The translations under genes and the position numbers were made by a program. Shown in pieces: positions 28,691 to 32,392 of a stretch of DNA of 64,000 nt. Origin of the DNA: Candidatus Eubacterium faecigallinarum (lineage in GTDB: Bacteria > Bacillota > Clostridia > Oscillospirales > Acutalibacteraceae); contig DXDN01000020.1 in NCBI GenBank assembly GCA_019115455.1, positions 1 through 64,000 of the forward strand, in the 5' to 3' direction. Under the pieces are notes generated by a model. The model did no database searches. It saw only the letters and a program-made list of their open reading frames with translations, and was not told the DNA's origin. The stretch's first letter is position 1, and every line of letters begins with the position of its first letter.

Positions 28691-29710
28691 ATGAAAATAG
28701 TTGTTTTAGCCGGAGGACTCAGTCCTGAGCGTGATGTGTCGCTGTCATCAGGGGCGCTGATTTCAAATGCGCTGATTGATAACGGTCACGACGTAATGTT
28801 GCTTGACTTGTATCTCGGCACAAACAGCGGAGATTTTCCGCCGGTTTACAGAAATAATAAATCTTCGTTCAGATATTCTTACGAAGTGACAGAGTCACAG
28901 CCTGATCTTGAAGCGGTAAAAAGTTCGGCAAAAAACGGCGACTGCCTTGTGGGCGACGGTGTTATAAACCTCTGTCGTGAGGCTGATATCGTGTTTATGG
29001 CGCTTCACGGTGCTGAGGGTGAAAACGGTCAGATTCAGGCGCTTTTTGATTTGAATTCCATCAAGTATACAGGCTCCGGATATGCCGCCAGCCTTATTGC
29101 TATGGATAAGGATTTGTCAAAGCGTATTATGCGTGACAGCTCAATTTTAACTGCCGACTGGGAATATGTCGACGTTAGAAATAAAAATGATTTAAGCGGT
29201 ATATCATATCCCTGCGTAGTTAAGCCCTGCAGCTGCGGTTCAAGCGTTGGAGTGACCATTGTTGAAAATGAAGCTCAGCTTAGCAAAGCCTTAGAGTTAG
29301 CAGAAAAATACGAGGATCACGTTATTGTTGAAAAAAAGATAAGCGGCAGGGAATTTTCGGTGGGAATACTTAATAACCGGGCGCTGCATCCCATTGAGAT
29401 TATCCCGAAAAGCGGCTGGTACGACTATAAAAACAAATATCAGTCAGGCTTGACGCAGGAGGTCTGTCCGGCTGATATTACCGGGGAAATATGCTCTCTT
29501 TTGCAGGAAAGTGCTTTAAAGGTGCACAATGCTCTCAGGCTCGGTTATTACTCAAGAGTGGATTTCATTTTGGACGAAAACGGCAGGGCTTACTGCCTGG
29601 AGGCAAATACTCTGCCGGGAATGACTCCCACAAGCCTTCTTCCCCAGGAAGCGGCGGCAGTCGGTATATCATACAATAAGCTTTGCGACATGATTGCATC
29701 AAGCAAATAA
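28691..29710 (+). CDS. ddl: D-alanine--D-alanine ligase
   Basis: ATP-grasp ligase making the D-Ala-D-Ala end of the peptidoglycan stem. 339 residues: N-terminal LAGGLSPERDVSLSSGALI, MALHGAEGENGQIQALFD, the ATP-grasp core (CVVKPCSCGSSVGVTIV, VIVEKKISGREFSVGIL), the omega-loop with the Tyr typical of D-Ala-D-Ala rather than D-Ala-D-Lac enzymes (WYDYKNKYQSG), and the metal-binding C-terminus LEANTLPGMTPTSLLP. It follows gatD after 15 bp (GCGGGAG SD), so three cell-wall genes form one operon. Confidence 0.93.
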   Translation: MKIVVLAGGLSPERDVSLSSGALISNALIDNGHDVMLLDLYLGTNSGDFPPVYRNNKSSFRYSYEVTESQPDLEAVKSSAKNGDCLVGDGVINLCREADIVFMALHGAEGENGQIQALFDLNSIKYTGSGYAASLIAMDKDLSKRIMRDSSILTADWEYVDVRNKNDLSGISYPCVVKPCSCGSSVGVTIVENEAQLSKALELAEKYEDHVIVEKKISGREFSVGILNNRALHPIEIIPKSGWYDYKNKYQSGLTQEVCPADITGEICSLLQESALKVHNALRLGYYSRVDFILDENGRAYCLEANTLPGMTPTSLLPQEAAAVGISYNKLCDMIASSK

Positions 29711-29771
29711 GACAAAAATGAACCATTAATAATACTGCGACGGAAATACTGTTTTGAATAAATATTTTATT

Positions 29772-29801
29772 AAAAAAGGCTTGATTTTTCAGGCCTTTTT
29801 T
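29772..29801 (+). terminator. Rho-independent terminator after ddl
   Basis: AAAAAAGGCTTGA pairs with TCAGGCCTTTTTT (one G-T wobble) around a TTTT loop, ending in a T run. The stem's inner left part, TTGATT at 29781, doubles as the -35 box of the rpsB promoter. Confidence 0.85.
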
Positions 29802-29809
29802 GCTATAAT
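29781..29809 (+). promoter_or_regulatory. Sigma-A promoter of rpsB-tsf
   Basis: TTGATT (29781-29786) and a consensus TATAAT (29804-29809) with exactly 17 bp between. The -35 lies inside the ddl terminator hairpin. Predicted RNA start around 29816, giving a leader of about 110 nt before rpsB. Confidence 0.8.
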
Positions 29810-29817
29810 GTTCCAGC

Positions 29818-29898
29818 ATTCGCATAAGTGAAAGCGAATACGCACATAAACGGGTGAGCCTTAGGTTATTGATTTAGGCTCGTGCCAGCCTGTTTGTG
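29818..29898 (+). ncRNA. Structured 5' leader of rpsB, candidate autoregulatory element
   Basis: Two stems are visible. Hairpin 1: ATTCGC (29818-29823) with GCGAAT (29834-29839). Hairpin 2, two-part: CACA/TGTG (29843-29846 with 29895-29898) then, after a TA bulge, AACGGG/CCTGTT (29849-29854 with 29889-29894), enclosing an inner stem GAGCCT/AGGCTC (29856-29861 with 29876-29881). The apical loop contains AGGTT (29863-29867), which can pair with AACCT (29906-29910) just before the SD AAAGGAGGA (29912-29920), a possible pseudoknot. Ribosomal protein operons are often controlled by their product through such leaders; S2 as ligand is an inference. Confidence 0.55.
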
Positions 29899-29927
29899 GA
29901 GGATTAACCTTAAAGGAGGAAATTATT

Positions 29928-30686
29928 ATGGCAAATGTAGTTTCTATGAAACAGCTTTTAGAAGCAGGTGTTCATTTCGGACACCAGACCAGAAGATGGA
30001 ACCCCAAAATGGCTGAGTACATCTTCACAGAGCGTAACGGCATTTACATCATCGACCTTCAGAAAACAGTTAAGAAGCTTGATGAGGCTTATATGTACGT
30101 TCGCGATCTCGCTGCAGAAGGCGGTTCAATCATCTTCGTAGGCACAAAGAAGCAGGCTCAGGAGTCTGTTAAGGAAGAGGCTGAGCGTTGCGCTATGCCT
30201 TATGTAAACGCTCGTTGGCTCGGCGGTATGCTTACAAACTTCAAGACCATCCGCGGCAGAGTAGCTCGTCTTGCACAGCTTAAGGCTATGCGTGAGGACG
30301 GCACATTCGACCTCCTTCCTAAGAAGGAAATCATCAAGCTTGAGCTTGAGATTGAAAAGCTTGAGAAATATCTCGGCGGTATCACAGAGATGAAGAAGAT
30401 TCCTAACGCTATGTTCATCGTTGATCCCCGTAAGGAGAGAATTGCCGTATCAGAGGCTATGAAGCTTGGTATTCCGATCGTTGCTATCGTTGATACAAAC
30501 TGCGACCCTGACGAGATCGACTATGTAATCCCGGGTAACGACGACGCTATCCGTGCTGTTAAGCTTATTGCAGGCGCAATGGCAGACGCAGTAATCGAAG
30601 GCAGAGACGGTAAGGACACCGCTGACGAGGAAGCTCCTGCTGAGGAAGCAGCTCAGGAAACTGCTGAGGAAGCTGCTGCTGAATAA
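29928..30686 (+). CDS. rpsB: 30S ribosomal protein S2
   Basis: Structural protein of the small subunit. 252 residues with the S2 signature stretches [22 protein letters not shown] at the start, [27 protein letters not shown] and [24 protein letters not shown]. The last ~30 residues are an acidic Ala/Glu-rich tail ([19 protein letters not shown]), common in Firmicutes S2 proteins. Strong SD AAAGGAGGA. Codon choice is biased to a few codons, as expected for high expression. Confidence 0.98.
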
Positions 30687-30706: not shown

Positions 30707-30732
30707 CGGAGCAATGCCAAAACATTGCTCCG
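30707..30732 (+). promoter_or_regulatory. Intercistronic hairpin between rpsB and tsf
   Basis: A perfect 10-bp stem (CGGAGCAATG / CATTGCTCCG) with a 6-nt loop, ending 33 bp before the tsf start. No strong T run follows (ATTTGAAATATTC), so it looks like a partial terminator or RNA-stability element that sets the S2:EF-Ts ratio rather than a full stop. Confidence 0.6.
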
Positions 30733-30764: not shown

Positions 30765-31703
30765 ATGGCATTTACCGCTCAGGACGTAAAGGCTCTTCGT
30801 GAGAAGACAGGCGTCGGAATGATGGAATGTAAAAAGGCTCTTGTTGAGGCTGACGGCGATATGGACAAGGCAATCGACTATCTCCGTGAGAGAGGTCTTG
30901 CTGCTGCTCAGAAGAAAGCAACAAGAATTGCCGCTGAGGGTGTAGTTCTCCCTTATTACGATAAAGAGGCTAAGAAGGGTGTCGTTGTTGAGGTTAACTC
31001 TGAAACAGACTTCGTTGCCAAGAATGAGAAATTCATGGATTTCGTATCAGGTGTAGCAAAGACAATCGTTGCTACAAACCCTGCTGACGTTGAAACTCTT
31101 TGCGCTACAGAGTTCAACGGTACCGGCAGAACAGTTACCGAGACTCTTAACGACCTTGTTCTTTCAATCGGCGAGAACATGAAAGTTCGCCGCTTTGAAA
31201 CAATGGAAGGCATCGTTTCAACATATATTCACGGCGGCGGAGCAGTAGGCGTTATGGTTGGCTTTGATGTAGCTGACGAGTCTAAGGCTTCAACAGCTGA
31301 ATTTGAGGCAATGGGCAAGAACGTTTCAATGCAGATTGCTGCAATGAATCCAAGCTATCTTGACGAGGCTTCAGTACCTGCTGAGGTTGTTGAGCACGAG
31401 AAGAGCATCCTTGCCGCTCAGATGAAGGAAGATCCTAAGATGGCTTCTAAGCCGGAGGCTGTTCTTGCTAAAATTGCTGAGGGTAAGATGGGCAAGTTCT
31501 ATAAGGAAAACTGCCTTGTTGACCAGGAGTTCGTTCGCAGCGACATTTTCCAGGGCTCAGTAAAGGGCTATGTTGACAGCGTTGCTAAAGAACTCGGCAC
31601 AGAAATCAAGGTTAACGGCTTCATCAGAATGATGAAGGGCGACGGTCTTGAGAAGAGAGAAGAGAATTTTGCCGAGGAAATTGCAAAGCAGATCAACGGC
31701 TAA
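30765..31703 (+). CDS. tsf: Translation elongation factor Ts
   Basis: Guanine nucleotide exchange factor for EF-Tu. 312 residues from ATG 30765 (SD TGGAGGAAT). N-terminal UBA-like domain and EF-Tu contact TAQDVKALREKTGVGMMECKKAL, then GLAAAQKKATRIAAEG, the core with EVNSETDFVAKNEKF (signature 2) and GVMVGFDVAD, and a C-terminal module ending in EEIAKQING. The rpsB-tsf pair is universal; the usual next genes pyrH-frr are displaced by about 10.7 kb here. Confidence 0.98.
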   Translation: MAFTAQDVKALREKTGVGMMECKKALVEADGDMDKAIDYLRERGLAAAQKKATRIAAEGVVLPYYDKEAKKGVVVEVNSETDFVAKNEKFMDFVSGVAKTIVATNPADVETLCATEFNGTGRTVTETLNDLVLSIGENMKVRRFETMEGIVSTYIHGGGAVGVMVGFDVADESKASTAEFEAMGKNVSMQIAAMNPSYLDEASVPAEVVEHEKSILAAQMKEDPKMASKPEAVLAKIAEGKMGKFYKENCLVDQEFVRSDIFQGSVKGYVDSVAKELGTEIKVNGFIRMMKGDGLEKREENFAEEIAKQING

Positions 31704-31828: not shown

Positions 31829-31897
31829 TGCGTAAAATTTGCGTACAAAATTGCGTATGACTTTCCCGAATTATCTTTTGCTAAGTTTTTTTGCGTA
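31829..31897 (+). repeat. Phased TGCGTA direct repeats
   Basis: Four direct copies of TGCGTA (31829-31834, 31840-31845, 31852-31857, 31892-31897), mostly in a longer TTGCGTACAA-like context. Helical phasing of the first three suggests a protein-binding array, for example recombinase arm sites or a repressor array. The binding protein is not known. Confidence 0.5.
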
Positions 31898-31910
31898 CAA
31901 TTCATTATCA

Positions 31911-32059: not shown

Positions 32060-32392
32060 GTGATATATATAAATAACGTAGATGAATTGGTAAATAAACT
32101 CACAGAGTTAAAGGATAACCGAAAGTGGAGTAATTATCGTATAGCAAAGGAAAGCGGTTTGCCTGTAAGCACAGTTTCAAATATTTATAAAAGAAAAACA
32201 GCGCCTCAATTTTATACATTTTGCTTAATTTGCAACGGATTTGGCATCAGTTTGTCTGATTCCTTTTGTGATGATAGAAAATTTGCCTCGCTAAATCAAA
32301 GAGAGAAAGAAGTTTTAAATTTGTTAAATCAACTTGATGATGAGCAACAAGAACTTATAATAAATTTAATGAAAATTATGAATAAAGCATAG
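32060..32392 (+). CDS. Small XRE-family helix-turn-helix regulator
   Basis: About 107-110 residues. The HTH is around 22-42 (SNYRIAKESGLPVSTVSNIYKRK) followed by the Cro/CI fold (APQFYTFCLICNGFGISLSDSF); the C-terminal 40 residues are a helical, charged region (LNQREKEVLNLLNQLDDEQQELIINLMKIMNK). It has a near-perfect SD (GGAGGTGATA) but no ATG, GTG or TTG at normal spacing: a GTG at 32060 overlaps the SD itself, and the codon at the right distance (32069) is ATA. Low GC and phage-type architecture suggest horizontal origin. Likely a DNA-binding repressor; the target is unknown. Confidence 0.75.
   Translation: MIYINNVDELVNKLTELKDNRKWSNYRIAKESGLPVSTVSNIYKRKTAPQFYTFCLICNGFGISLSDSFCDDRKFASLNQREKEVLNLLNQLDDEQQELIINLMKIMNKA

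Follow-up and report, generated by a model that had tools for sequence, protein, structure and literature searches.

The stretch of DNA analysed here (the window, 64,000 nucleotides from Candidatus Eubacterium faecigallinarum) contains on its forward strand the gene rpsB, encoding ribosomal protein uS2 of 252 amino acids (29928-30686), followed by tsf for elongation factor Ts as the second gene of the operon. The open reading frame listed for tsf starts at 30714; its start was placed at 30766 (30766-31703) because the Shine-Dalgarno-like sequence TTGGAGGAA precedes this position. The Shine-Dalgarno sequence of rpsB, AAAGGAGGA, lies at 29912-29920 on the same strand, as do all other features described below. 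The consensus promoter proposed for this region in the initial annotation is present at 29781-29809. It is of the sigma-70 type, with a -35 box (TTGATT) at 29781, a spacer of 17 nucleotides and an extended (TG) -10 box (TATAAT) at 29804-29809, giving 10 of 12 consensus matches, and -10 boxes are also found 5′ of the leaders of the genus. The rpsB-tsf transcript would begin near 29816. An inverted repeat, AAAAAAGG/CCTTTTTT, occupies 29772-29801 and is terminator-like for an upstream ddl-like gene; its loop contains the -35 box, and its T-run falls within the spacer of the rpsB promoter.

Conserved fold of the rpsB leader

A DNA search gave a match in 69 of the 80 genomes of the genus. The genus set consists of 66 distinct leaders, which were aligned mechanically on the anchors CRCA, GGU, UGCC, GGAGG and AACC, and pairing was used solely for choosing between alternative CRCA anchors. 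The 5′-most element of the transcript is hairpin 1 (29818-29839), formed by ATTCGC (29818-29823) and GCGAAT (29834-29839). Although the single-sequence minimum free energy (MFE) fold favors a different small hairpin at this position, the stems of hairpin 1 covary: divergent members of the genus carry different strands that stay complementary (ATTCG/CGAAT, GCACGG/CCGTGC, GCATAGT/GCTATGC and CACAAAT/ATTTGTG), and a stem of at least 6 bp occurs in 86% of 65 leaders compared with 45% of shuffles. Outside the genus, hairpin 1 is frequently missing.

The three-part hairpin 2 assigned to 29843-29898 was likewise borne out, as both of its helices appear in the MFE fold and show compensatory changes among the 66 genus leaders. 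P1 is a helix of 10 bp between 29845-29854 and 29889-29898, in which individual positions show as many as six standard pair types, and P2 is a helix of 5 bp between GAGCC (29856-29860) and GGCUC (29877-29881). In the genus alignment, 93% of the P1 cells and 96% of the P2 cells are paired, whereas sliding the partner strand lowers these values to 34-51% and 18-61%, respectively. The order-level MAFFT alignment of 60 leaders supports both strands of P1 as well, with 90.2% of cells paired and a covariation score of 0.718, compared with 0.226 after shuffling and at most 0.193 after sliding. None of 200 dinucleotide shuffles folds as stably as the 130-nt leader (z -2.9). Beneath the bulged A29844, P1 is extended by C29843-G29899. 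This pair and C29841-G29901 involve the lower P1 strand CGCA (29841-29844), are C-G in 66 of 66 leaders, and flank a conserved mismatch, G29842/A29900, whose column is not a standard pair in 60 of 66 leaders; the same arrangement is seen in the RF01815 alignment. P1 is followed by a conserved GAGGAUU (29899-29905), which is part of the GUGGAGGNUUAACC core common to E. coli t44 and RF01815. A third helix, P3, is predicted in most order-level leaders and is absent in the genus, where the apical loop of a single hairpin therefore holds the pseudoknot strand.

A pseudoknot adjoining the Shine-Dalgarno sequence

The two strands of the loop-to-flank pseudoknot suggested in the initial annotation are located where it had placed them: AGGUU in the P2 loop (29863-29867) and AACCU 3′ of P1 (29906-29910). 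The gap between AACCU and AAAGGAGGA is a single base, U29911, and not two bases as had been described. The GGU:ACC core is unchanged in 66 of 66 genus leaders, whereas pairs beyond it are often missing and the fourth pair is gone in 25 of 66. Because the core is invariant, no covariation of the pseudoknot was found among the 66 leaders, and the pseudoknot would be compatible with the genus sequences but not proven by them.

Evidence for the pseudoknot comes from outside the genus, where 80 loci yielded 68 parsable leaders. The 3′ triplet of each leader was set by a fixed rule, and its reverse complement followed by G was sought in the inner 5′ region. A matching 5′ triplet was present in 51 of the 68 leaders against 28.8 expected when triplets were dealt among species in 20,000 rounds (sd 3.0, maximum 42), corresponding to a permutation p of ~5e-5, although p-values of this test are inflated by relatedness and are hence not exact. 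Leaders with ACC carry GGUG in 34 of 38 cases compared with 8 of 30 others (p 1e-7), those with ACA carry UGUG in 9 of 15 compared with 6 of 53 (p 3e-4), and those with AAT carry AUUG in 5 of 6 compared with 9 of 62; ACT with AGUG goes in the same direction (2/7 vs 3/61) and is not significant alone. Thus, the core occurs outside the genus as GGU:ACC, UGU:ACA and AUU:AAU, and the exchange to UGU:ACA recurs in the dissimilar leaders L038, L058, L074 and L102. A few order-level leaders, such as L035, L073 and L103, do not have a matching triplet. These order-level triplet exchanges are compensatory changes affecting the pseudoknot itself. The covariation on which the initial annotation had made its proposal depend is therefore found in related leaders for P1, P2, hairpin 1 and the pseudoknot.

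Relationship to known rpsB leader RNAs

The leader matches no Rfam family when default thresholds are used. A permissive Rfam search gave RF01815 (rpsB; 26.4 bits, E 9e-4) and RF00127 (t44; 21.5 bits, E 0.014) as the two best matches, both under their gathering thresholds of 40 and 44, respectively. Both families model RNA before rpsB, and their alignments to the leader span P1 and the UGGAGG-N-UUAAC core. RF01815 exceeded its gathering threshold in none of 59 genomes of the order, and RF00127 in none of 21 genomes of the family. The initial annotation had also named a match to an unrelated known RNA family as evidence against its proposal; the best matches are the rpsB leader families themselves, and all others scored far under threshold and were rejected. 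Separately, RF00127 and RF01815 are typed as sRNA genes, and at their gathering scores they miss Oscillospirales rpsB leaders (e.g., L036-L107) that share the motif.

Detection also works in the opposite direction. R1, a covariance model derived from Oscillospirales leaders, recovers the rpsB leader of E. coli K-12 at the correct place (24.9 bits, E 1e-6). When 199 genomes of the phylum were searched with R1, the best 30 matches all lay directly 5′ of rpsB. Claims are limited to these 30 checked loci; the tally of 174 of 199 genomes is not a count of leaders, because short hits consisting of a Shine-Dalgarno sequence plus AUG inflate it.

In 2009, Meyer et al. described an rpsB motif in Proteobacteria, Cyanobacteria and some Firmicutes, consisting of P1, the helices P2 and P3, which vary in length and may be missing, and a pseudoknot between a strand inside P1 (junction) and an extension 3′ of P1, which in Firmicutes comprises three base pairs (PMC2704228). 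The present leader and its relatives share the position directly upstream of rpsB, a long P1 supported by covariation, P2/P3 helices of which either may be short or absent, and the pseudoknot with the 3′ extension, which is invariant in the genus and covaries in the order. The three base pairs of the Firmicutes motif are the GGU:ACC core of this genus. The genus differs from the 2009 motif in having no P3, an extra 5′ hairpin and an extra conserved UGCCA. With RF01815, the leader shares P1 with its bulged A and the AUUAACC tail, aligned end to end, whereas the length of the inner part differs and the score is below the curated threshold. With the E. coli leader (RF00127), it shares the rpsB-tsf operon and the core CACAC-P1-GGUGCC-P1′-GUGGAGGNNUAACC, a kinship strengthened by the reciprocal detection; the stem sequences differ, the t44 score is under gathering, and the E. 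coli pseudoknot is GGGGU:ACCCC, at a greater distance from its Shine-Dalgarno sequence than in this lineage. By sequence core, fold and position, the leader is a well-supported further case of the widespread rpsB (S2) leader RNA, a motif known since 2009, while it falls short of the gathering scores of the two curated families. These leaders escape both Rfam rpsB models; merging the two into a broader one would help genome annotation to find them.

Predicted control by ribosomal protein S2

The comparisons above establish how the leader folds and where it lies, that the fold is conserved and covaries, and that the RNA is related to the E. coli leader. For E. coli, a 2024 review describes an established autorepression in which surplus S2 represses rpsB-tsf translation via the leader (PMC10931766). 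By analogy, S2 is probably the ligand and represses translation in this lineage as well. The 5′ hairpin of the transcript would be followed by P1 capped by P2, and GGU(U) in the P2 loop would pair with (A)ACC just 5′ of the Shine-Dalgarno sequence. S2 exceeding the free 30S subunits would bind this fold and stabilize P1 plus the pseudoknot. Since the pseudoknot helix is immediately next to the Shine-Dalgarno sequence, S2 holding this helix would keep the 30S subunit off, leading to less S2 and, through operon coupling, less EF-Ts. We assign a probability of about 0.87 to the reading of the leader as an S2-binding RNA whose stabilized P1 and pseudoknot keep the 30S subunit off the Shine-Dalgarno sequence. 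The autoregulatory role put forward in the initial annotation is thus supported by covariation and by the matches to rpsB families; its view of the device as particular to this lineage is not, since the motif has been known in several phyla since 2009. The ribosome-blocking step is suggested by geometry and is uncertain, because in E. coli the ribosome-binding site is reported to lie outside the operator and S2 repression is said to require S1 (PMC10931766). As the E. coli pseudoknot strand is farther from the ribosome-binding site, the mechanistic detail may differ. For comparison with the site of S2 on 16S rRNA, a 16S rRNA gene was sought in G000 and six relatives and was not found. A transcription attenuator was rejected as a candidate, with no terminator-like site across 29680-29960.

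A further contact may exist at the start codon. UGCCA (29883-29887), between P2 and P1, is an internal-loop motif that is invariant and specific to the clade, being confined to the genus and its sister genus. It is complementary to UGGCA at 29929-29933 and, as it is usually UGCCAU, to the AUGGCAAA start of rpsB. Of the 66 genus leaders, 65 retain the five pairs, and the A-to-G and C-to-U substitutions seen give G·U pairs; the complementarity is longer in many relatives, and the sister genus (L150) has it too. It is conceivable, though rather improbable, that UGCCA(U) pairs with AUGGCA(AA) and hides the start codon in the repressed state, an explanation compatible with S2 as the ligand. In its fuller form, which we regard as equally speculative, the genus and its sister would have gained a second long-range contact, UUUGCCAU/AUGGCAAA, and an S2-stabilized double pseudoknot would occlude the start codon. 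Against such a contact, the start sequence is invariant in the clade, the pairing would have to cross P1 as well as the known pseudoknot, and UGCCA could equally be a contact of S2. Outside the clade, UGCCA with AUGGCA or UGACA with AUGUCA revealed no significant association (Fisher p ≥0.06, permutation p 0.09). Given this result and the invariant start, either a start contact or simply a protein contact may hold.

The Shine-Dalgarno sequence is unpaired with the conserved helices P1 and P2, and the 5′ hairpin looks like a stability element; both features would suit a conserved structured RNA that lacks S2 feedback in this lineage and mainly determines how stable the mRNA is and how efficiently it is translated. 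This is unlikely, as the compensatory evolution of P1, P2 and the pseudoknot exceeds the needs of an unregulated leader and the core is common to the S2-regulated E. coli leader. Control by another ribosomal protein, by EF-Ts, which is also encoded in the operon, or by a small molecule is very improbable, considering that the best 30 phylum-wide matches are all immediately 5′ of rpsB, that no riboswitch family matches, and that the known E. coli ligand of the family is S2 (PMC10931766).

If S2 controls this leader, a feedback loop proven in E. coli would reach a large group of Clostridia, backed by quantitative covariation that includes the pseudoknot. Only one base separates AACCU from AAAGGAGGA, in contrast to E. 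coli, so the lineage would provide a clean place for testing how S2 represses translation, a step that the review describes as unclear (PMC10931766).

Downstream of the operon, repeated words containing GCGTA (TGCGTAAAATTTGCGTACAAAATTGCGTATG and TTTTTGCGTACAATT) occur at 31830-31900, 3′ of tsf, and this stretch is followed at 32060 by a small helix-turn-helix-like open reading frame.
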